A stretch of 64,000 nt of DNA from Cinnamomum chago (taxonomy: Eukaryota; Streptophyta; Magnoliopsida; Laurales; Lauraceae). Each line of letters starts with the position of its first letter. Position 1 is the stretch's first letter. The notes under the pieces were generated by a model. That model was not told where the DNA came from. It did no database searches and saw nothing but the letters and a program-made list of their open reading frames with translations. Location of the stretch: the NCBI GenBank assembly GCA_038049695.1, contig CP142452.1, forward strand, positions 67,151,501 to 67,215,500. Direction: 5' to 3'. This document shows positions 1,226 to 63,800 of the stretch, one piece after another. Made by a program: the position numbers and the translations under genes.

Positions 1226-3645
1226 TTACTCCATTAATGGCTATTTATAAACACAGATGGAGATGCATATTTTTCAAAGCTTATCAAATCAAAATTTTGA
1301 TTTGACTTTTCAAATACATTTTTTCTCCCTTTCACATATCTCAGGACAGAGTACTGGTACCGACCATGTGATAGATGACATGGCCACAGTAACTTTCACA
1401 TATCACAGGACATAGTACTGGCACCGACCAGGTGATACTTGACATGGGCCCAATGACTTTCACAAATTACAATACAGAGTACCGGCCCACTAAAAAATGA
1501 GATGTTTAAAAAATCCTTCCGATTTAATACACGATTCATGAAATGGATGTGCCACAACCAATGACACTGTCACGTAAAATGATTAATTCGGTGATTAGAC
1601 AATATAAAAGATGGGTCAATCAAATTATATCAACCATTTAATTAGATCTAAATAATGAAAACAAAAGTTGACAAAAAATGTGGTAGTATAGAATGGTAAA
1701 AGTGGACAAAAGTATAATATGGTATGAAAAATGAAGTGGACAGTAAAAGTGGACAAAAATGGACAATAAATGTATATATATCGGGGAGTGCTACACAACT
1801 CCCAAACAATTCTTTTAAGAGCAAATACCTTTCCTAATTGGGCTCATTGGATGCATGATAATCATGCAAGGCCATTGAACAGAAAAATTCATATGCAGCC
1901 TATCTATATGCAAGATCTTGAATTAATAAGATCATCCTATCCTTTAGATCTATGACTCTAAAATTTAATGGTTTAAAGGCATAATTTTATTGTAATTTCA
2001 ATCCTAAGGTGGGCCCCATGACTCAACAAAGAGGTGCAAAAAAAGGAGTGCTTTTAAAGTGGCGCTTTTTTTTCTAAAATTCCTGATGTAAGGGCCCCCA
2101 CCATATCTCTTATAATAAGGTGAGATCTTCTCCCATATATATATATATGGAAAATATTCAAGTGCATCCATCCCCCACAATCCCTCACCTAAAATTCAGA
2201 TGGTCCTTCCAGTTCAAAGCTTTAAATGACGAGAATGGCAGATGAGAAGATTATTAATTAATGATTGATGGCATGGACGTACGCACACCCAATGACAGTC
2301 ACATAAAATTAAATTAATGAGTACATCTAAACACATATGTATTTTTTCTTAATGGAGATGCACATTTTTCAAAGCTTGTCAAATCAAAATTTTGTTTTGA
2401 CTTTTCAAATACATTTTTTCTCCCTTTCCGTACGGATCATTATGGGAGATTTGACTTTCACTTGCACACACTCCAAAACTTTTGATTTGATAAGTATTAA
2501 ATGACGAGAAAAAATGGTTTAAGTTATGGGAGATCTGTGTTTAGATGTACTCATTAATTTAATGTGACTGTCATTAGGTGTGCGTACTTCCATGCCATCA
2601 ATCGTTAATTAATAATCTTCTCATCTTCTATTCTCGTCATTTAAAGCTTTGAACTGGAAGGACCATCTGAATTTTAGGTGAGGAATAGTGGGGGGTGGAT
2701 GCACTTGAACATTTCCTATATATATGTGGGAGAAGATCTCACCTTATTATGAGAGATATGGTGGGGGCCCTTACATCAGGAATTTTAGAAAAAAAACGCC
2801 ACTTTAAAAGCACTCCTTTTTTTTGCACCTCTTTGTTGAGTCATGGGGCTAGCCTTAGGATTGAAATTATAATAAAATTATGCCTTTATACCATTAAATT
2901 TTAGAGTTATAGATCTAAAGGATAGGATGATTTTATTAATTCAAGATCTTGCATATAGATAGGCTGCATATGAATTCTTCTATTCAATGGACTTGCATGA
3001 TTATCATGCATCCAATAAGCCCAATTAGGAAAGGCATTTGCTCTTAAAAGAATTGTTTGGGAGTTGTGTAGCACTCCCCGATATATATACATTTATTGTC
3101 CATTTTTGTCCACTTTTATTGTCCACGATCATTTTTCATACTATATTATACTTTTGTCCACTTTTACCATATTTCTATACTACCACATTTTTTGTCAACT
3201 TTTGTTTTCATTATTTAGATCTAATTAAATGGTTGATATAATTTGATTGACCCATCTTTTATATTGTCTGATCACCGAATTAATCATTTTACGTGACAGT
3301 GTCATTGGTTGTGGCATATCCATTTCATGAATCGTGTATTAAATCAGAAGGAGTTTTTAAACATCTCATTTTTTAGTGGGCCGGTACTCTATACTGTAAT
3401 TTGTGAAAGTCATTGGGCCATGTCAAGTATCACCTGGTCGGTGCCAGTACTCTGTCCTGTGATATGTGAAAGTTACTGTGGCCATGTCATGTATCACATG
3501 GTCGGTACCAGTACTCTGTCCTGTGATATGTGAAAGGGAGAAAAAATGTATTTGAAAAGTTAAATCAAAATTTTGATTCGACAAGCTTTGAAAAATGTGC
3601 ATCTCCAGTAAAAATACATCTGTGTTTAGATGTACTCCATACTTT
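1226..3645. mobile_element. 2.4-kb fold-back (long inverted repeat) transposable element
   Basis: The left arm (about 1226-2340) reads as the reverse complement of the right arm (about 2525-3645) over roughly 1.1 kb with few mismatches; the loop is about 190 nt. Examples are the GGTACCGACCATGTGAT block at 1355 against its complement near 3500, and the CAAAATTTTGATTTGAC block near 1290 against 3570. A third copy of the end sequence (TGGAGATGCACATTTTTC) lies inside at about 2354. No open frame encodes a transposase, so it is non-autonomous. I see no convincing target duplication. Arm-related sequence recurs at 22.49-22.98 kb. Superfamily unassigned; a Mutator-like fold-back is possible. Confidence 0.85.
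1241..1249 (-). promoter_or_regulatory. TATA box of the TPS exon 1 gene
   Basis: TATAAATAG on the minus strand, about 80 nt upstream of the exon 1 ATG, a normal spacing for a plant core promoter with a 45-50 nt leader. It sits at the edge of the fold-back element, whose outermost repeat reaches about 1226-1259, so the element's end may form part of this promoter. Confidence 0.55.
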
Positions 3646-3689: not shown

Positions 3690-4395
3690 GTAGATTCTTC
3701 TTGTCATACAACTTGTGAGCTTTCGATAGTTATATCATTAATAAGTTAATTTTTTAAAAACATGTGATTAGCATGCTTCATGCTTCAATCGAAATATTTG
3801 TGATTTAAGCTTTTAAAAATTTTAAACTTACTTTCATTGAGCATCATTTTTAACTTGATGAAAGTTTTCATGCATACAAATTATTCATTCATCTTTAGAT
3901 TCATATAGTGTGTGTTGAGTTAGATTCTTACTTTTATATTCGCCTAATTAAGAGTTAATGTAATTGAGCTTAATTTTTATCTCTTCAAGTGTTTTGTAGA
4001 CACATCTTAGAGATAACCATTCTTAGGGTCATAGTTAGTGCTTAGCCTTAGAAAATCATAAGTGTAAAGATTATGGGTCAACCATGAAACCCAAGAGGTT
4101 ATTGCTTAGCATTGGAAGGCATACTGTAACTTGAAAGTCATTTTGTAAAGGTTATTGCTTAGTCTATTGAAAAGTATAAATAGTGGAATGCCGTTGGGTG
4201 TAGGAGCATAAGCCAGGAGTGGACGTGGGCATTAAGGCCAAACCACTATAAATAGTTATGTTACGGTGAATGTTTTTTGGTGATTGTTTTTGTTAGCTTC
4301 CACACTTTAGTTTGATCCATAATTGGTCACTAAATGAAGCTCACCCTATTCCAATCACATCAACCCCCCCAGGGGTTCGGATCCCAGACTTTCAA
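3690..4395 (+). repeat. Truncated LTR fragment (3' part), related to the LTR at 55.7 kb
   Basis: Closely parallels 57345-58045: the ACAACTTGTG start, the AGAGATAACC and AGGTTATTGCTTAGC blocks, the ACTATAAATAG stretch and the final CCCCAGGGGTTCGGATCCC all occur in the same order. No primer-binding site follows at 4396, so only the LTR's 3' portion remains. Most likely a relic of the same Copia-type family. Confidence 0.7.
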
Positions 4396-37450: not shown

Positions 37451-37463
37451 CAAAGGGGGAGAT
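37451..37463 (+). promoter_or_regulatory. Polypurine tract next to the nested 3' LTR
   Basis: CAAAGGGGGAGA directly before the LTR start (TGTAAGTG at 37464). Primes plus-strand DNA synthesis in LTR elements. A similar tract (CAAAAAGGGGGAG) lies upstream at 37182, as in SIRE-type elements with more than one. Confidence 0.7.
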
Positions 37464-38627
37464 TGTAAGTGTCACATGTCTGTGTGCACTGAGTTTTGTT
37501 TGTCAATTCCGCGCCAATGAGGTCCAAAGTTCTTGCCTCTCAAATTGACTCAAGGAAGATCACATTCAGAAGGATTATCAAGCTTGTGGGAAAGTCCGGA
37601 TTAATCAAAGAAGGTCTCCATTTGTGTTTGACAACCTTTTCAGGTAATTCATACCCAGACCAAACCCTTAATTAGATCCCTGGGAAAAGTTGTGTTTTAA
37701 ACTCATGTTTTTTATCCTTGATAATTAGTCCCTGTGGAAAGGGTCAGGTGACCCTACGGTCACCTGCGGCTAGCCGCCCCTTGCAAAGGGGCTAGCCGCT
37801 AGACCTGCGGCTAGCTTTCCAGTAAGCTGTTTCTCATATTTTTTTTCTGTGCTTCCTGCGGCTAGCCGCCATGTGCACCCACGGCTAGCCGTAGAGCTAA
37901 CCGTGGGATTTCGTTTTGCTTTCCAGAGGCTGTGTTTTTGTCAGATCATCTTGCGGCTACCCTTGCGGCTGCCTCACGGCTAGCCTCCAACTGTTCCTGC
38001 AACTAGCCGTGAGCTAACCTAATTTGAAATTTTAGACCGTTATTTGAAATCGGCTAGGTTCTGGTCTAAAGGGGCTAGCCGCCAATATAGCCGTTAGATC
38101 TTTTCTAAAAATCTGGAGCTTATTTCTCCTTTCACAGTGACTCTTTTGAAAGAGCTTTTGCAGGCTATTTTGTTCCCAACATATCTTAGGTCTCAAATCT
38201 TGTTCCAAACACTCATGTAGTACATTTAGGAAAATCCTAGAGCTCCATTAGCTCCAAGATGAGTGTGTTGTGTGAGAAGTTGCCTGTGTCTATTCTTTGT
38301 GGCATGATTTAATCATTTCTATATCTATATTGTGGGATTTGTTATGTATGATAGGTCATCATGACTAAGATTCAATAGACACACACTTGAGCTTATCTAC
38401 TCTCATCTAATTGTATCTCTTTGCTTGGTATTGTTTAAGCTGTCTTGTTGAACACATATGCTACTTAAGTCTTTCTGATCTTCTTACGTTTGTTCTGTTA
38501 TCTGTTCTGGTTTTATTATAAGTGCCCTAAAAAGTTTAAAATTGGTATAATTGATTCCCTTAGTCCTATTCACCCCCCCTCTAGGACTTAGTCATTGGCC
38601 CTAGCCTGCACTATCAAGGACAACCTA
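37464..38627 (+). repeat. Nested 3' LTR with GCGGCTAGCCGC / GCC-box cluster
   Basis: TG start after the polypurine tract. Contains perfect 12-bp palindromes GCGGCTAGCCGC at 37766-37777 and 37858-37869, and AGCCGCC at 37772, 37864 and 38077, with many variants between 37760 and 38100. The 3' end is not exactly fixed. Confidence 0.6.
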
Positions 38628-52050: not shown

Positions 52051-52247
52051 GATCACAAACTTTTTCGACTAGCCCTAACTCGTACAACTCGAATTTAATT
52101 TTATAACCATGCTTGAAATACTTGGCCCCCTTGGCCAACTGATTATGGACAATGTGCAACCTAGAAATATAGTCTATACATAGTTATTTCATCTACTTTT
52201 CAAGTTTGTAGGTAAAGGAGGAGAAGGAAAAGTGCATAATATCAAAC

Positions 52248-52466
52248 CTTTTGATTGCATCAGTAAATACTTTGAGATCCTCAAATCTTCCGTCAACGTC
52301 GAAGTTGTCATCAATGATAGAAACAAGCTTAAACATTCTTACAACTATGTTTCTACCTCGGGCATATTGTGGTTCAAAATAAAAACCCAACATCCAGTAG
52401 TAGCCTTCCACCAATTGATCTCTTGCAAAAGGATACTTAGCTGCAAGGCCTATGTCCTTCCACCAC
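52248..52466 (-). CDS. TPS copy B exon 4
   Basis: 219 bp, family-typical: WWKDIGLAAKYPFARDQLVE, GYYWMLGFYFEPQYARGR, FKLVSIIDDNFDVDGRFEDL. Carries the DDxxD magnesium-binding motif (DDNFD). RDQ replaces RDR of the RxR motif thought to hold the diphosphate (CAA for CGA). Confidence 0.92.
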
Positions 52467-52560
52467 CTACAGGAGATAAAATCATAAACAATATATATTA
52501 TAGGAATGAACAATTTGTGTTGTCCACGAGTAACAATTGGATGAATCATACTCAAATATA

Positions 52561-52668
52561 TCAAGCCCATGAAAACAGTATATAGGAGTTTTTATCCATG
52601 CCATCTCTGAAAGCATAACCGCCTGAATTAAGGGCATAGACCGAAATTTCCATAAGCAGATCCAACTT
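52561..52668 (-). other. Unexplained open stretch in intron 3, copy B
   Basis: KLDLLMEISVYALNSGG then YAFRDGMDKNSYILFSWA-stop; counterpart of 15465-15573. No family recognised. Confidence 0.3.
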
Positions 52669-53066
52669 AGATTGACCATTTATGCATCTCTTATCATGCA
52701 CACTCAAGTGTAACAATTGGGGCCCCACCGCTCAAGAGGAATGTGGGGGATCCAAAGATCTTGATGGGCCCTACCTTTAGATAAAACTTCAAGCTCATCA
52801 GATCATCATATCCCCTTGATCTGTGGCCCACAAATTTAATGTATTTATATAAAAATAAAAAATAAACCCTTGATCCAATGATCTTAGTCCATTTGGATCA
52901 ATATAAGAAGAAAATGGAATCAGTGACATTTAGGGGTGTGTTTGAGTGTAGTCCATTTGGACTGGTGATCAAGTGGACCCCACTAGGCGGTGTGCGTGGA
53001 AGCTCCCAACACGAGGTGTGTAACTCAAGATTTGTTTGTATAATATTGTGCTTGTGTGTGAATAGA

Positions 53067-53207
53067 TATATATAGAAATGCTCTCACCTTACTATAAGAG
53101 ATACAGTGGGGCCCTCACATCCATATCCAATGCCAACGACTTAAATGTGAGGGTCGCCGCCCCTATCTCTTACCTTACTATGAGATATACTCTCACAGGA
53201 GCACCTC

Positions 53208-53247
<40 letters not shown>

Positions 53248-53270
53248 GCACATATACACACGCTAGTGCA
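53067..53270. repeat. Imperfect inverted repeat (MITE-like) and (TA)n tract in intron 3
   Basis: CTCTCACCTTACTATAAGAGATA ... CCCTCACAT (left) and its loose complement on the right (TGAGATATACTCTCACAGG) enclose about 170 bp, followed by a (TA)n run at 53212-53246. Resembles the inner part of the fold-back arms (TTATAATAAGGTGAGA). Confidence 0.55.
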
Positions 53271-53691
53271 CATGGTTTTAAAGGCATATGCCAGAACATG
53301 ATCTTTTGCACACCCTAGTTTTCATCATGAACTGTCCTTTATGGTTTGCAAAAATCCAGGTGAGCCCTAACAAGTTAGATCATATACTGCACCATCTCGC
53401 CAGACCCTATTGAGAGAGAGACGGACGAACATGGATATATACAACTACACAAGTTTGTGGCCCCAAAATTCAAATCTATAAAGATTTTATAGGGCCAATT
53501 TTAGGGGTATCCTTTGTCCATGCATAAACCTATCCAGTGGGCCCCAACAACAACAATTTGTTCAGTATTCACATGATCATTACATGCAGCCTTATCTGAT
53601 CCATCAAGTAATTGCCTTTTAAGCTAGTTGTATATAATATGTAGAATAAAGTGATGTGTCATTCATATTAGGTCTAGTGTGTTATACTTGC

Positions 53692-54067
53692 CTTGTTAGC
53701 TCCTTTAGCTCTTTTCGATGCATTGACTGTATCAAATTGAAATCCAACTTTGCAAGCTCTAGGATAACATCATTTTGTTGCTTATCATGTTGCTGGAAGA
53801 GTGAGATGTAAAATCTTGCATCCAGCCTAGCAAAGCGCTTACGCATAGGTAGCTGAAGAGCATGACCTACTTGTGCTGCTAGATGACCATCAAGATGGGT
53901 CATGAGAGACGTAAGTTGTCCTTTTGTGAAAGAGATGGCCTCATCCAATGTATCTTCTCCATGTGTGCCATAAAATGCCGCTTCGTAGAGACTTAACAGG
54001 CCCTCCACATCACTACATAAACCTTCCTTGAAGTTGCCTTCACTGTCTTTGAACGTGTTGAATACAT
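53692..54067 (-). CDS. TPS copy B exon 3
   Basis: 376 bp: DVFNTFKDSEGNFKEGLCSD, SLYEAAFYGTHGEDTLDEA, ARLDARFYISLFQQ, LELAKLDFNLIQS, KELKELTR. The acceptor is GAGACAG; the donor is GC (AACAAG|GCAAGT), giving a GC-AG intron 3. Confidence 0.93.
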
Positions 54068-54576
54068 CTGTCTCATAATCAAATAATTCATGATTTTTAG
54101 TAACCCTAAACATTAATTTGTCTCAGTACTTCTTAACCTCTTTTTCCTTTTTCTTTTCTAAGTTTAAAGAGATAAGGATTTTGACGCCACAACCCCTCAC
54201 TTCAACTCTTAGATATGTTCTTTATCCAGTGGAGTAAACATGTTTTGTGCATTAAAATCCATTTGAAAATTAATCTCTAAAGTAGTTATAAGTAAGAGGC
54301 GGGACAAGGCAACTGAAACCCAGATCCCTCGAGTCATAATCTATAAATATATTCCCGTGTCAAACTCGGGAAGTAAAAAAAGAAAAAAAAACTCTGTGAA
54401 ACCTTCTTCGAATAGGAGTAGAATGGGATAGCAAGTGGCAACCCACCCTCATCTCTAACCTGTTTCATATTATTTAGAGGGATTAAAAAGACGGAAAGGG
54501 ACTGTCATAGCATCATCGATAGAATAGAATGACAACGCTTATGGGGTTGATTTTTATCTCAACTTTATTTCATCGT

Positions 54577-55708: not shown

Positions 55709-58062
55709 TGTTAGGATTTTTGTAGATTGCAATTTGATGGATGCATAATCATTCTAGCATCATTTGATTTACACACTTGCATTGGTTTAAAGAAAACTTG
55801 AAATCTAGTTTTATACATGCATAGTTTTTAAGTTTTGGAAAAGTATTTGTTTTATGCATGTTTTGGTTCTAAACTTGGATGCATTAGTTTTAGAACCCAA
55901 ACTCTTTTTGAAAACCTAATTCCTTGTGCATTTTACTTGGAAAATCAGTTTGAGATTTTAGGTTTTAACCATGCATACATTCAGCACCTTGAGAATCATT
56001 TATGTATGCATTTGTTTTAGAAAAGAGTTTTAGAAAATCAAGCTAGCCTTTGGTTTTAAAGTTTTGAATCTTTTTAGGCTTTGAGTGTTTCATGTTTTTA
56101 TACATCTTTGGATGATTTAAAACATGTGAAAAAGCTTGATTTTAATGGCCCAAAAGATCCCCAAAGAAAATCTTCAAAAAACCCAAAAATGGGTAAAATG
56201 GGGCTGCAGGCTCGGTCAACCGGCCGTGCATGGCCGGTCAACCAGCCAAGAGGCCCGGTCAACCGGCCACACTGCCGGTTAACCGGGCTCCTGAAGCCAA
56301 ACGGCTCTTTTTATGACCGTTGTGCTTGGCCGGTCAACCGGCCTGTCATGGCCGGTCAACCGGGTAAACTAGCCGTTGGGCACTTTTTGCTATATATATG
56401 AGTTCTTTCCCTTGCCAAAAGTTGGGAATTTTAAGCCCCTCCTTGAGAGGTATTGAGGCATATCAAAAGGGAAAAGAACCAAGGGATGAAGGGGATGATT
56501 AGGAAAGCTAAAGCTTGGATTAATGAAGTTAAACCACCAAGTAGGCTCTTCCTTCCTTAATCATATGTTTTCATGCTTTGTTTTATTTTTGGTAAATCAT
56601 TTCTAGCATGTTAAACTATGTTTGTGTTGTGTCCTTAACATATTTTATGTTTTGAGTTGATTTATTGTTTTGGATACAACATCATATGATTCAATCCAAG
56701 TAGTACTTAACTTTGGTAAATCTAAGTAGATCCTGTTAATGAAAAAACCTTTGAAATCATATGTAACATGATCCATATACTTGGTTGAATCTTTGGTTGT
56801 TGTTTTCCATCATAAGAACATCTCTTTCAAAACTAACTTATGTTTTGGATTCAACTTCTTTACAAATCATATGTTTTCATGTTTTGTTTTATCATTGGTA
56901 AATCTTAGTAACATGTTAATCTATGATTTGTTGTATCCTTAGCATGGTTTATATTTTGAATAGATTTATTGTTTTGGATACTTCACCATTGATTCAATCA
57001 AAGTAGTACTTTATCTTTGGTAAATCTAAGTAGATCATGTTAATGAAATATGTAACATGATTCATATACTTTGTTGAATCTTTGGGTGTTGTTTTCCATC
57101 ATAAGAAAATCTCTTTCAAATGTATCTTATGTTTTGGATTCAACATCATTACAAATCATATGTGTATTATTGTTTTAATGTTTCACAACTTGCCTTACTT
57201 TGATTGGTAAATCATTTTCAAGTTGTCTTTATAATTACATATGATTTGTCCCCTCATTTCAATCAAATCTAATTTTATGTTTTATGAGCTACATGGTGAT
57301 TTGATTGACATCCCTATGCATCACATGTTTAGAGCTAATCCATTTCATACAACTTGTGTAACTTTGATATCATTAACAAGTTGTTACTTTTAACATGTGA
57401 TTGCATTGTTTCCTCAATCATAAATGTTTTATGAGCTAAAACTTTCAAAAGCCTTAGGCATACATTTATGAACTTTCATTTTCAAAATGATTGAGGACCA
57501 CACACACACACTTCATATACTTTCATCTTTGCATTCATAGTGTGAGTGTGTATTAGCTTTTCACTTCCATATCCGCCTATTTAAGAGGCATTGTAATGAG
57601 CTAAATAGAATCTCCATCAAGTGTATGATAGACACTAAATTAGAGAGATAACCAACCTTGTGGTTGAAGAGGTTATTGCTTAGCCTTTAAAAGCATAGTG
57701 TATAGGTTGATGTTTAGCCTTGGAAAAACATCAATGTAAAGGTTATTGCTTAGCCTTGAAAAGCATAATGTAAAGGTTATTGCTTAGCCTATTGAAAAGC
57801 ATAAATAGTGGAAATCCGGTGGGGTGTTGGATCACAAGCCGGTAGTGGATGTAGGCTTTGAGGCCGAACCACTATAAATACTTGTGTGATGGTGCTTGCT
57901 TTGTGGTGATTGTTTTCCTTAAGCTTCCGCATATTGTATGGTTAATCATCACATGTGACTAGTTTGTTTTAAAGAAGTTAAAATTGATTAAAATTGGTCA
58001 TAGTTGAAGCTCACCCTATTCACCCCCCCCCCCTCTAGGGTTCGGATCCCCATGGACTTACA
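55709..58062 (+). mobile_element. 5' LTR (about 2.35 kb) of a large Copia-like element
   Basis: Starts TGTTAGGATTTTTGTAG at the broken TPS exon and ends GGACTTACA at 58062, two bases before a tRNA primer site. It contains a GGTCAA/W-box palindrome cluster (56214-56365), a TATATATATG box at 56391, a tandem duplication of about 300 bp (56566-56866 and 56867-57158), hairpins with a TTGGTAAATC loop word, and the AGGTTATTGCTTAGCC tract shared with 3690-4395. The other LTR should lie right of the window. Confidence 0.75.
56214..56360. promoter_or_regulatory. Phased W-box/palindrome cluster in LTR promoter
   Basis: GGTCAA (TTGACC on the other strand) at 56214, 56236, 56257, 56332 and 56354, plus GGTTAA at 56277; successive spacings 22, 21, 20, 55 and 22. 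Each is embedded in CCGGTCAACCGG-like palindromes, 40-180 bp upstream of the TATA box. TTGACC is the core of WRKY-bound W-boxes. Confidence 0.6.
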
Positions 58063-58064
58063 AG

Positions 58065-58076
58065 TGGTATCAGAGC
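58065..58076 (+). promoter_or_regulatory. Primer-binding site for initiator methionine tRNA
   Basis: TGGTATCAGAGC, complementary to the 3' end of plant initiator tRNA-Met, two bases after the LTR end. Start point of minus-strand reverse transcription in Copia elements. Confidence 0.9.
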
Positions 58077-60288
58077 GGGTTACTCCATTTTAGGGCTTAA
58101 CAACCCGGAGTTGATCCTTGCTAGATTTGAACCCTAGTGTTGTGTATTTATTGCATATCTTTTTAAAGATTTCCACTATGTTTGAAAATGTTTTTCCCTA
58201 GCCTCTTTGCACCACTCTAAGACTTTTCTAAGTTTTATCTTCTAGAGTTGGTGAGTCTCTCAAGGACACATTTTCAAGACCTTAGGTGTATTTTCAAAGG
58301 TAGACTATTTGAGTAACCTTAAGGCCTTGATACCCCTAGACCAACCTATGCTTTTTAGTTATATCTTTTTGTTGGTCATGTTACATTTGCATTTTGTTTC
58401 TTTATAGTCACATCTTTTAAAATGCAATGTTTCTATGTGATCATTTGATTTTGTCTTCATGAACTTTTAAAGTTATATCTCATGGTTTTCAAAATCCTTT
58501 GGTTGCATTACTTACATGATGGATTTGCTTTTTATTCATATAGTTATATCTCTTGTAGTGCATATCTATTCATGATCAATTGATTGTGATTACAAATGCT
58601 TTCATAGCTAGTTTTTCATGATCAATTGATGTTGGAAAATCATTTGATGTTTGTCATAGTTAGATCCTTTTTGGAAATCAAATGATTTGAAGCAACCTTA
58701 GTTTTCCATTGATTTACAAGTTATATCTTTTGATATGGAAAATTTGTAAGTGTCTATTGCTTTTACAAATTGAAAACTTTACAATAGTACACTTCTTGTT
58801 TTTCAAAATCACTTGCTCTTAATTCTATAGATGATTCTTTGTTGGAATTTCATATATTGAAGTGATTTGAGAAACTTTGGAAAATGTTCTAAGCTTTATT
58901 AGTTATATTTATAGAAGCATTTTCCTTGAATTTATTTCCTTGTGCCTAATTATGATTATATCATTTGGAAGGAAATAATTCTTACAAACAATTTGCATCT
59001 TTGCTCTTTTAGTTACATTCTTTATGCAAATTGATTTTGTTGTCTTACATTGCATGGTTGGGTATGGTTTCATTGATTTGCATGGTTGTGCCTATTTTGG
59101 TATATATTCTCATTAATGCAAATTGATGATTGTTCATGTGCTTTATAGTAAAATCTTATGTTCTATTATCATTTGAGCCTAATAAGTACATATGTGATTT
59201 TATGTGCTAAGGTCATTTGGTGTAAAACTCTTATCCATTGTCCATTGCATTGTAAGCTTAGTACATTTGCTAAGAGTGGAGATGTTACATGATAGCTTAA
59301 TGGATCATTTTAGATGAATTGGAATTAAACCATTGTTCTTAATAGGTATATCCATTTATGTGGTCCATCTTCATCTTTATGCAATCCATGTTGTCCCTCT
59401 AACTTCATACCTTCTTTGGCTTGCTTAGTTATACTCTTTTTTTGATGATATGGTATGAGTTAGATCTTGAGTGTCGATTGATCCTCTCTATGCAAATGTC
59501 AAATTGTTCTATGTATGGTAGTGATATTTATTATATTTGTTGAAACCATACTAGAACTCAAATCCATCCTCTATGCTCATTAGTCATTTCTTTTTGGATG
59601 GTTATGATGTTGATTCATGTATTTTCTCTAAGTGATAACATCCTTATACATGTCTTAACTTCATAGTAGTGTCTTGATCATATGAAACTCTTTGAAATCC
59701 ATTCCTCATATTTCTATGTGTTTGATGGATATCTTAGATATTGAATTCATATGATTTAGTCACTTTTTAAATTGCATGCATTTCAAAGTCATATTATTTT
59801 GCATTGCAATTTATCTTGTTCATCACTATGCTCAATAGTTTTATCTTTAAAAGTGATGAATATGCATTTATGATGCTTGATGGAAGTTTGTCACATTCTT
59901 GTTCTTTATCATGTTATCAAATTCAATTGGATTCAATTGGTATAATGTTTGATTGGTTTGATTTCTTGTGAATGTGATAAACCTTGTGTGCATTGGATTG
60001 AACTTGATAAGTAATATGATTGTTCCATGTCACACACCATTAGCATCATAATTTTCATGTTGCCACCTCCTTTGCTCATATAGGTATATCTCATGACCAC
60101 CATGTTTATGTGTTCATAATATTGGTTGGTTATTAGTTGAGGTTGGCTTCATGTTTGAATTTCATTTCACTCATCTTGCACTTTAATAGTCATATTTAGT
60201 GATTGAATGAAATGAGTTCAAAACCTTACATAGCATATGATTTTCATAAGTAATATTGATTGATGCTATGTTTGAGTAAACCCCATAT
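58077..60288 (+). other. Noncoding leader of the LTR element with an array of ~22 hairpins
   Basis: No gag or other long ORF for 2.2 kb after the primer site. From 58210 to 60222 short perfect or near-perfect inverted repeats follow each other, about 50-65 bp apart in the first half. Their loops carry a TTAGTTATATCTTT-like word. Examples (stem/stem): 58637-58648/58677-58688, 58989-58998/59024-59033, 58932-58941/58969-58978, 59819-59827/59852-59860, 58879-58890/58913-58925. The region may be the internal domain of a non-autonomous large retrotransposon derivative. It is interrupted by a CACTA element at 60289. Confidence 0.75.
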
Positions 60289-60438
60289 CACTACACCAAA
60301 ACAGGGCTTTTACGGCGCGCATTTTGCGCCGTAAACCAAGTTTCACGGCGCAAACTAGCGAGCCGTAAAAGCTCCAGCCGTAAAAGGGCATGTGTATTAA
60401 CGACGCGCATTTGCGGGCCGTAACATACTCAAATGCAT

Positions 60439-60714
60439 GCCGTAAGTGAGGTTTACTATGACTTTCCGAACGTATTCACGGCACTAAACGAATGCCGTTA
60501 ATGAAGGTCTTTTACAACGTACACGCGCACGCCGTAAATTAATTTTGTAAATCGTTGTTACGGCGTGTAGGCGTAGGCCGTAAGTGAGGTTTGCTATGAC
60601 TTTCCGAACGTATTCACGGCGCTAAACGAATGCCGTTAATGAAGGTCTTTTACAACGTGCACGCGCACGCCGTAAATTAATTTTGTAAATCGTTGTTACG
60701 GCGTGTAGGCGTAG
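60439..60714. repeat. Two tandem 138-bp units in the CACTA-2 subterminal region
   Basis: GCCGTAAGTGAGGTTT starts units at 60439 and 60577; a third start-like GCCGTAAATGGG is at 60715. The units differ at only a few positions (for example TACTATG against TGCTATG). Confidence 0.9.
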
Positions 60715-60819
60715 GCCGTAAATGGGTTTTTAGAATGAATTTATGGCGTCCAAAGAGGGCCGCAAAAGGATTGGAAAGATCTAATATATGGCGTGCATTG
60801 CGCGCCGTGATTGTGTTTT

Positions 60820-63800
60820 TTTTTTTTTTTAGAAATTGAATGTAAACCATTAATATCCTGTTAAATTGAAACTAAATTCAACCAATACAAAACAGTTGTG
60901 CCCATACATGAATGAAATAAATTAATCTCAAGCTCAAGCTCCAATTCAAATTCTACAAAACAGAACCTTAATAAAAGATTAAAAACAAAATGAACTGGAT
61001 TACACCATCAAAACCAAACCCACATATCAAAATCTTCAATCAGAATTAAACCACCAAAATGCATAAGAGGCTGAAAGTAAAAATATTTCAACATATTTCA
61101 ACATATCAACGTTACCAATACAATTTTAGAAACAAAAAAATTAGTATTTGTTCTTAATACAACAAAAGTGAACCCCAAAAAAAAAAACTCCTGAGAAAGA
61201 TACCCATGAAGCTCGAACTAAAATTGTGTTCTTCCAATACTTATCAGCAAAATCTGCACAAACAAATAAAATTTGATAGAATCATTACTCCAATATTAGG
61301 TAGCACGTAACTTCACCACCCCAAATAATTAAAGAAAAAGTGAAAGCAAGGTTTAAAAATCCAAGTAACATGTAAATCAACTCATCAAGTCATCAGTATT
61401 GCATAAACAAGTACATCATTGTCAAACTACTTATGATCAGCTGGAGGTAACTGCCACAAAATCAAATAAAAATGTATCTTAGGTGCATTGACAATGGGCA
61501 CAAAATAAAAAAAAAATGCACGGCTTCATCATCACAATCATAATCATCATCCTTACCACCATAGATTTGTCCCATCTTAGTTGGGTCAGCAAACAATAGA
61601 ACATATAGCTTATTATATTAAAAAGATAGTTCTGGTAGAATGCTAGTCTTTATGAGTTCATTGAGCCATGTGCTTATCCCCATGTGCTTAAGGATGCCTT
61701 GTGTGACAACGATCACATATAACATCTAAAGCTATACAGCCTCAGGCATTCAATGTCTCACAGCAAAGGAACAGTCTGTGCAAACTGCAAAATGAATGAC
61801 TCTGTAGAATAGAAGGGCAAGTGAATCAAGTGATTTCTATTTGGCCAGCAGTTTGCCCCATGAGAAATTTGTTTACTTTGAAGTAAAAAAAAATAGTGGA
61901 CAGACTGCAAATGTTCTTTTTCCTACCATTAGAAATTGACGCTTCCAACTATCATATACCAAACTCAGAAAAAAAAAAAGGAAGCTATATGGCACCAACA
62001 GAACCATACAGTTTTGTGCAGATTGCTAACCTGAGCACACAGCCACTCCACCAAACCTTTCAAAACATCATCAATTGTCGTGAGCTTGTTCTTTGACTGT
62101 GAGGCGTCTCCATTTTCAACAAGACCATTTTGAATTTTTGGAAAGCAGCATAATAGAAGAAGAGAATATTTTTCTTTATGTTGTAGCAACAATGGTTACA
62201 TAACCTATATGCATGATATCTTTGCAGGACCAGCTAAGCACACTTCAAGATTCCATTTGAAGACATTACCTGCCAATGAAAAAAAAAAGAAAGCATGTCT
62301 CTGTTATGAAGGAATATGCTGTAAAATTTTGTAGCTTTTTTTTGTTTTTTGTGATAGTGAAAATATTACACAACAAAAAATAAAAAAAATAAATAAAATT
62401 CAATACCGAACAAACTATAAGAAATTTCATAGCTGAAGGCCAATGCTGCTACTCATAGATGGCCTAGAGGAAGGCAGATGATCTCGGGTCAGAGGAGAAT
62501 AGAACACTACCAGGCCAATGGAAATTGGATAGGACCTGTTACACTACCAGGAACTGGTGTACAGTTTAGAGTTACTTTAGAGTAATTTACATTCATAGTA
62601 ATGCTCCAATAAAGAGTTCCAGTAAATTCTAACAACTTCCATATTGTTCATGGAGGAATCATTATAAATCAGGCTACAGTCAGTCAGTCCCATCCCTCTA
62701 GATCGGCTTCAAAGGAGCTCTAAAAAAGAAAATCAATCAATCACCAAAGACAGAGACATAAACATAGAAAAGATTTATTTCCCATGCTGTATTGCCACCC
62801 CTGCATGTACAGCAAAGCTCCCACGCAGGCCAAAGCAGTCCTGATAGCTTTCCAATTCCTAATAATTTCTTTTGGGTGATATTGTCCTGTTTTGAATTGT
62901 GGAATTTCTCTCTTTCAGTGTGTGTGTTTTTTGGAGGGAGAGAGCTGTGCGTTTTCCATAGTGCTATTGGTCCAAGGACAACCCCAAAAAATAAAGTCAG
63001 AGCAAGGACAGCAGCCGCACGTTAAGCCAGACTATGCTGCAGTAAACAAAGTGCAGAACCCAGACTAATGAGAACAAAACCTGCAGTAGAGACTTAAGAC
63101 AACACTTGAAAACCAACAAAACAAAGCTATACAGAACAGATTTCCATTATCAGGGAGCAGCAATGTTACTAACAACAACGAAGGTGAAGATGCACATGAG
63201 TCAATGTCCAATCTGAAGTATTCAGAATCCAGTGAGGCTAACAGAATCTGATGGTAAGGTGACTTCTTGCAATTATCAGGACCAAATTTTGAATTCACTG
63301 AGTCTTATAACTGGAATTTTGAATTCACTGAATTCACTGAGTCTTATAACTGGAATTTTGAATTCACTGAATTCACTGAGTCTTATTACTCAATCAGTCA
63401 TTGCTTACACTGAGTCTTATAACTGGAATTTTGGATTCTGTTTTAAAGCTAGTAATGTTTCTTAGGATATGTGAGCTTATAAACTAGGTATCAATCTTTC
63501 TAAGGAGAGTTCTCTCTTGCTGACGTTCCCACATACGGACCATTGTCCTGGTCCCTCTATGCAACAACAAGAGAGAAACCAATTACCATCTGTAAATCCT
63601 CAAATACAAATAAGAGATTCAAATATTAGAATTGGGGTCAGAGTCCATTAGAAAAAGAATGCATGCATGGACACCCAAACTAGCCCTTTACATGGATCCA
63701 ACATCCACCACAGCACTCCCAAGGTGAATAATACGAAACACAACGAGCTGTCCTAATATTCAATAGACAAGTTCATGAAAACTCATTATCATGCAAATTA

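Follow-up and report, generated by a model that had tools for sequence, protein, structure and literature searches.

What kind of element carries a run of hairpins in which the stems differ from unit to unit and the loops share a word, and what would such a run do for it? The question is raised by a window of 64,000 nucleotides from Cinnamomum chago, plant DNA that also holds two terpene synthase domains on the minus strand (52193-52570 and 53682-54113; Pfam). The original prediction read the run as a repeated module in the leader of a retroelement, perhaps with a role in packaging or translation.

The element and its copies

The array belongs to an LTR retrotransposon, in which an LTR pair, a primer binding site and a polypurine tract are all present, and the finding of these features and of further copies upholds the idea of a repeated module in a retroelement. 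In the window, the 5' LTR (55709..58062, + strand; 2354 bp) has ends, read in the sequence, of TGTTAGG and ACTTACA, and judging from sequence alone contains a TATA-box-like TATATATAT at 56391..56399 (+), which would place the transcript start about 30 bp 3' of it. The primer binding site TGGTATCAGAGC (58065..58076, +), which we take to be of the initiator tRNA-Met type, is identical in 20 of 23 aligned copies and altered at its final base in the other 3. The array itself, with its AGTNATAT-like loop word, spans 58210..60277 (+) on the basis of stems, folding and loop motif, and the element is then interrupted by the start of a CACTA-type (En/Spm) DNA transposon (60289..60830, +, the right limit being arbitrary). 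The transposon shows CACTACACCAAAA at 60289, GCGCCGTAAA-like subterminal repeats and a 138-bp tandem repeat, and its terminus is presumably that of the CACTA (En/Spm) family.

A scan of the assembly for copies (14 contigs, 1.06 Gb) gave 41 leader matches including the window, mostly 92-94% identical, from scoring the best 40 of 5132 first-look candidates. Several matches on one contig are spaced 5.1-5.5 kb apart, as expected from tandem LTR-internal-LTR arrays. In 27 of 30 genome loci the 3' LTR starts 3095-3116 bp past the end of the 5' LTR, preceded by the polypurine tract AAAGGGGGAGATTG and beginning immediately after GCAAAGGGGGAGATTG; the remaining three, the window copy among them, have no 3' LTR start within the stretch examined. 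The LTR ends and polypurine tract resemble, as we take it, those of the Ty1-copia SIRE/Maximus lineage. Between their LTRs these 27 loci have an internal region of about 3.1 kb, of which the array occupies about 2.3 kb. The earlier placement in a retroelement leader therefore needs amending in one respect, since the array is not simply a leader ahead of gag but fills most of the internal region.

The interior is non-coding where it was checked. In 7 of the 27 internal regions, the longest open stretch on either strand spans 71-115 codons, and two open stretches of one copy (L012) have no Pfam match, findings that speak against a protein-coding remnant. Because the checked copies hold no gene and most of the interior is given over to the array, the element appears to be non-autonomous, without coding capacity in the copies checked, and LARD-like; an internal region of about 3.1 kb is not the very short one of a TRIM. 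All that the family obviously contains is a single repeated RNA unit, which lends itself to testing. At gathering thresholds, Rfam gave no match in the window or in copies L012, L020 and L070, the hammerhead ribozyme included, and a known RNA family was set aside as an explanation after 11 sub-gathering matches in the element (best E 0.2) were judged to be chance. An exact-pattern scan of viral contigs for relatives of the array returned none, and a search of open-licence titles and the opening parts of abstracts found no description of an LTR-retrotransposon hairpin array with a common loop word.

Parts of the LTR also have potential to form hairpins. Within R-U5 lie a hairpin-capable duplicated 0.3-kb block (56559..57177, +), 84% identical, and four 34-nt tandem repeats (57670..57806, +), each forming a small hairpin when paired by eye; one of these repeats, again by eye, has both arms altered, TTATTGCTT/AAGCATAA vs TTGATGTTT/AAACATCAA. 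An LTR fragment elsewhere in the window (3704..4390, +) matches the 3' portion of the main LTR at 70% identity, and its homologous hairpin has the loop ATAGTTATATC.

Stems and loop word of the array

All 15 stems originally listed are present at their coordinates: 12 are perfectly Watson-Crick, two contain a one-base bulge (58210/58253 and 58879/58925), and one (59071/59128) has two mismatches, both G-U wobbles. When non-overlapping, perfect stems with loops of 12-45 nt are counted in 58077-60288, 13 of at least 8 bp are found, as compared to 2.0 +/- 1.4 (maximum 6) in 100 dinucleotide shuffles, and at 9 bp the count is 10 vs 0.7, so that the stems clearly exceed the shuffled control proposed for them. 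Local-span folding, with 20 shuffles per region and strand, gives the leader z scores of -14.5 on the + strand and -7.9 on the - strand. In the same order of strands, R-U5 scores -7.2 and -10.1, U3, with its GC-rich palindromes, -5.0 and -7.5, the CACTA stretch -4.9 and -3.6, and the related LTR fragment -1.3 and -0.5; two control regions range from -2.5 to +0.2 over both strands. The shuffles and control regions exclude the array as a product of chance. Each copy has about 22 perfect stems of at least 7 bp, with neighbors often 50-70 nt apart, and the units have no column-by-column alignment to one another. Two examples serve to illustrate them, the unit GACCAAC/GTTGGTC with TTAGTTATATCTTT in its loop (58339..58377, +) and a unit with the 12-bp stem AAATCATTTGAT/ATCAAATGATTT (58637..58688, +), neither stem varying in any of the 23 copies.

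From the loops of 21 hairpins picked out mechanically (at least 7 bp), a motif search recovers de novo the word CATAGTTATATT, of 60.6 nats vs 32.7 +/- 2.5 (maximum 38.2) in 40 base-shuffled loop sets. A AGTTATATC-like common word is thus recovered, on the + strand, from loops defined by their stems and not by the word. Its proposed presence in nearly all loops was too generous, as the motif is loose and is weak or absent in several of the 15, namely those at 58575, 58770, 58806 and 59071. The word sits on the 3' side of the loop. At a score of at least 9, the word matrix finds 17 matches on the + strand of the leader and 0 on the - strand, none in R-U5, and about 0.4 per 2.2 kb elsewhere; at a score of at least 7, the minus strand has 0 matches in the leader and in four copies and 1 in a diverged sister copy, L070. 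Two ideas about the word were dropped. Kissing of self-complementary loops was suggested by the near-palindromic AGTTATATCT, but by a crude count most word variants are not palindromic, and pairing with the anticodon loop of initiator tRNA would be broken by the word variants. A further form, ATATCTTT, resembles what we take to be a minor-spliceosome 5' splice site.

Word and stem are found together. Loose word sites (n=31) have a mean stem score of 15.7, vs 12.1 for all leader anchors (0 of 20000 permutations), and at a fixed threshold strong stems are found around 16 of the 20 words in the leader, vs 31% of its positions. Because the matrix was trained on the window's own loops, other copies and L070 provide a fairer test. 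In three other copies, strong stems accompany 15 of 22, 17 of 22 and 15 of 21 words, with 24-31% for positions overall across the window copy, these three and L070; in window positions 1-55600, strong stems are found at 3 of 33 words, not above random positions (9.4%). The array is also longer than the 58210..60222 first assigned to it, since in other copies it continues beyond the site of the CACTA insertion. In four uninterrupted copies the words start about 0.16 kb inside the internal region and continue to about 2.5 kb, some 300 nt beyond the end of the window's array, with 22-24 on the + strand and 0 on the - strand. The last 0.6 kb of the internal region of L012, which is purine-rich and ends in the polypurine tract, has no words.

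The sister copy L070 measures about 3.0 kb from primer site to 3' LTR and is 73.6-74.4% identical over the array, a divergence of 26%. It too has a hairpin array, with 6 stems of at least 9 bp against a null of 1.0 (maximum 3), and 16 words on the + strand beside the 1 on the - strand. Strong stems flank 9 of these 16 words, and one unit, TGTGTTC/GAACACA, has a stem unlike any on the window list and the word in its loop.

Change and constraint among copies

Differences among copies can be placed in time by their LTRs. In 9 dated copies of 30 of this recently active family, with LTR overlaps of about 1.4 kb each, the LTR pairs show 0, 0, 1, 2, 0, 0, 0, 0 and 1 mismatches, or 4 in 12.8 kb, whereas from copy to copy the LTR differs by 1-5% and the leader by 2-7%. 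Almost all differences among these copies therefore predate insertion and arose in the replicating lineage, with the caveat on this dating that conversion between LTRs could have made the pairs alike.

In that lineage, the stems are conserved. In an alignment of 23 of 30 leaders (7 were removed as at least 99.5% identical to another; median pairwise identity 0.95), the columns of 21 mechanical stems, which carry a small bias from having been chosen as perfect in the window copy, average 0.054 shared changes and 0.043 private ones. Circularly shifted masks give 0.133 and 0.088, and no such mask is as low as the stems in shared changes, while 0.26% of them are in private changes; loop columns give 0.183 and 0.119, and the remaining columns 0.129 and 0.084. 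Seven of the 21 stems are free of substitutions across the 23 copies, and a hand list of 23 stems, including a non-pairing one at 59690/59733, shows the same conservation as the mechanical list. With structures taken from two other copies, shared changes fall in 5.5% and 5.9% of paired vs 12.8% and 12.7% of unpaired columns. In R-U5 the contrast is weaker than in the leader, with changes in at least 2 copies at 43 of 582 paired vs 117 of 918 unpaired columns. Few changes in stem columns among copies is what was expected of arms that are kept paired; the companion expectation, of varying stems and constant loops, fails between copies, where the least change is found in the stems rather than in the loop words. 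A-T transversions are in excess in the leader, but also in R-U5 and the tail, and are therefore not special to the hairpins.

The claim that both arms change together holds at a few pairs, with mixed statistical evidence. In the unit at 58932..58978 (+), a T-A pair has become C-G in 1 copy. In that at 59768..59813 (+), T-A is compensated to G-C in 4 of 23 copies and 4 copies are unpaired there, and in that at 60228..60271 (+), A-T is compensated to T-A in 4 of 23 copies, with 3 unpaired and 1 gap. The pair 60154/60222 is changed from T-A to C-G in 1 copy; at it, as at 59768/59813 and 60228/60271, other copies hold unpaired intermediates. Over a 446-pair structure of the window copy, double-change cells number 16 vs 5.6 +/- 1.8 in shuffles (0 of 500) and the covariation score is 0.020 vs 0.017 (0 of 500), while the number of pairs with a double change is marginal (7 vs 4.5; 23 of 500). 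Among six slid controls, that at +1 exceeds the real structure in double-change cells (20 vs 16), but in 4 pairs vs 7. At paired positions there are 39 shared variants, of which 18 keep pairing, and 60 private ones, of which 24 do, proportions that differ little.

Comparison with L070 gives a similar picture. Under a null that shuffles changes among paired columns only, all four directed tests show more double changes than expected (18 vs 10.1, P 0.006; 16 vs 10.4, P 0.047; 15 vs 7.4, P 0.006; 20 vs 7.8, 0 of 2000) and fewer broken pairs (P 0.0005 to 0.044). Against a null of all positions, double changes are in excess in the last test only (P 0.23, 0.24, 0.12 and 0.0055), and every one of the four has a deficit of broken pairs (P 0.0055 or less). 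Structures free of G-U pairs likewise have fewer broken pairs vs all positions (P 0.0015 and 0.0005), with no excess of double changes within pairs (P 0.10 and 0.28). Constraint on the stems shows more as few changes than as compensated ones. Outside the leader, the duplicated R-U5 block has 7 broken pairs vs 12.4 (P 0.015) and 8 vs 12.5 (P 0.044), its double changes not being significant, and the related old LTR, at 3704-4304, is protected from pair breakage when compared one way (span 75, P 0.0085; span 150, P 0.084) but not when compared the other way (P 0.50 and 0.39).

The copies are also mosaics of one another. Among 157 informative sites, the proportion of pairs with all four gametes is 27% at distances below 50 nt and climbs to 71% beyond 1600 nt, r2 drops from 0.255 to 0.057, and Rm is 57. 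These values fit either switching of templates between RNAs packaged together or recombination at the level of the DNA copies.

What the array may do, and the nearest known parallels

Intact stems in recently inserted copies suggest a docking array by which a parasite borrows another element's machinery. The reading we lean toward, as a good possibility rather than a probability, is that the array is a multivalent RNA recognition platform for packaging by the Gag of an autonomous partner. Transcription would start from the LTR, and each loop would offer a weak site for the partner's Gag or nucleocapsid. Some 20 sites in cis would give the RNA an avidity for that Gag through which, it is proposed, it is packaged, dimerized and reverse-transcribed. 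The stems would serve as rigid presenters, free to differ between units while pairing holds, and mosaics would arise where two RNAs were co-packaged and reverse transcriptase switched templates. In favor of such a platform, words anchor stems in the window copy, in three other copies and in L070, and do not in window positions 1-55600. The role in translation entertained at the outset is less likely, as no gene was found to translate.

The array could instead recruit a host RNA-binding protein, for nuclear export, stability, localization or a shield against silencing, an explanation that we regard as unlikely though well worth keeping in view. Retroviral constitutive transport elements show repeated loops to an export factor, the RNA of a gene-less element would be unspliced and need export, and the anatomy of the array (word, + strand, words in the loops of stems) would be the same. 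AUG triplets are frequent in R-U5 and leader, 124 vs 72 expected from base composition, which makes translation an unlikely use of the RNA and so counts on the side of a host protein. Yet no host motif was matched, Rfam has no family for the window or for L012, L020 and L070, and a need for about 20 sites would better suit the assembly of a particle.

Another unlikely alternative is that the structure is functional in itself, compacting the RNA for reverse transcription or packaging, or protecting it from nucleases or small RNAs, with the word a relic of tandem duplication. The better conservation of stems than of loops between copies is what it would lead one to expect, and word columns have private changes at 15.7% vs 11.3% for other loop columns. 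Shared changes, in contrast, are fewer in word columns, 8.5% vs 15.5% (P 0.03). A mere relic is also at odds with the de novo loop motif and with the lean of polymorphisms to the word, whose letter is the major allele at 51 polymorphic word columns, the minor at 16 and neither at 9. Moreover, a relic should decay like other loop sequence, but the word is kept in the loops of L070 at 26% divergence.

Selection might also have little or no part in the stems, if these were made and repaired by template switching within quasi-palindromes, a process known from reverse transcription and replication (PMC8794818). Such an origin would account for stems that are perfect and different in each unit. It would also suit changes corrected at the level of DNA or cDNA, with no clear preference for G-U over A-C. 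If selection acts on the + strand RNA, G-U is expected to outnumber A-C among single changes. The ratios in leader stems are 11:10, 13:9, 13:9, 11:7 and 8:10 for five reference copies, and the background spectrum of the leader predicts 84:126, so that the leader leans to G-U, not significantly against equality; in R-U5, A-C is the commoner (9:12, 8:15 and 7:14 for three reference copies). Maintenance of the stems is thus observed directly, and selection at the level of RNA is made likely only by the confinement of the word to one strand. Quite improbable as a full account, the mutational origin leaves unexplained the shared + strand loop word and the constancy of stem sequence, beyond complementarity, in 7 of 21 stems over 23 copies, and the two control regions have no excess of structure. 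Repair of stems by template switching could nonetheless act alongside selection.

A device at the level of DNA, whether it would form cruciforms or be bound by a transcription factor or an integrase, is very improbable: the arms are Watson-Crick in DNA and folding z is negative on both strands, but the word is almost confined to one strand, folding of the leader is more extreme on the + than on the - strand, and stems that differ in sequence hold no common DNA site.

In a bolder reading, on which we are slightly more guarded still, the array may be a new kind of cis-acting module, in which a gene-less retrotransposon lives by about 20 loop-word hairpins serving as a high-avidity decoy or packaging platform, its stems turning over between units with pairing and word kept. 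A single synthesized unit could be used as bait, so that the recognizing protein could be found directly, and the answer would bear on how gene-less retrotransposons such as LARDs come to be packaged by another element's Gag. Described LARDs are larger than the present element. Like it, LARDs such as Sukkula are non-coding LTR elements with well-conserved RNA secondary structure, but the portion of their description available (PMC7215508) mentions no row of short hairpins that share a loop word. Cassandra and other TRIMs are likewise non-autonomous, with tandem LTR-internal-LTR arrays and predicted RNA folding (PMC7215508); unlike the present element, with its 3.1 kb and no Rfam match, they have almost no internal domain, and Cassandra carries 5S sequence. 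Retrozymes are also non-autonomous plant retrotransposons that carry RNA structure (PMC4918200), in their case a hammerhead ribozyme, which Rfam does not find in the window, L012, L020 or L070.

The nearest tested precedent for packaging by a partner is BARE2, a copia element that produces no Gag of its own and has its RNA packaged into the particles of BARE1; its defect is limited to Gag, and the available part of its description includes no hairpin array (PMC3735527). For the array itself, the nearest working analogy lies in viruses. The dispersed packaging signals of human parechovirus and hepatitis B virus are many stem-loops with one loop motif on one RNA, thought to cooperate in assembly (PMC5431903, PMC7612645). 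Those signals lie in coding genomes and have reported contacts with shell protein, whereas the present hairpins form a dense tandem array with a putative binder. Should the array prove to be a packaging platform, retroelements would have their own equivalent of the multi-site signals by which viruses package their RNA.

Substitutions and arrangement of element copies

Among the 20-23 copies compared, shared changes in the leader, which holds the element's hairpin array, include 125 A-T transversions versus 111 transitions of all kinds, and such transversions are about as frequent as all transitions in R-U5 of the LTR and in the tail as well as in the leader. This frequency looks unusual for neutral plant DNA, and its source is perhaps a reverse transcriptase bias.

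Within the best 40 of 5132 candidates, the ones scored in the genome search, element copies also occur in tandem (LTR-internal-LTR-internal, and so on) at 5.1-5.5-kb spacing on contig C3 and other contigs, with at least four consecutive matches at G000:C3:56938247-56956398. A related element at genome locus L047 (2217-2440), in which only about 215 bp separate the primer site from the next LTR-like start, is a possible miniature derivative.

Features of the LTR and the surrounding window

Direct and inverted GGCCGGTCAACCGGCC-type repeats occupy 56206-56380 in U3 of the main LTR, close upstream of a TATA-like sequence. In the CACTA-type terminus at 60289-60730, subterminal motifs resembling GCGCCGTAAA recur, and a tandem repeat of 138 bp matches at 96%. 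Elsewhere, the arms of a large inverted repeat at 1320-3540 (1329-1486 and 3380-3536) share a 64-bp tandem repeat in reverse-complement versions, and a terpene synthase gene or remnant on the minus strand (52193-54113) has its N- and C-terminal Pfam domains in different frames.

Other LTR-like sequences

A genome search found five copies (96-97%) of the LTR fragment at 3690-4320 on the same contig, at G000:C2:67235495-67739312, and their clustering within 0.6 Mb suggests local segmental duplication. Another LTR-like stretch at 37460-38610 contains GGCTAGCCG repeats and, like the main LTR, has ATTCACCCCCCCTCTAGG near its end.
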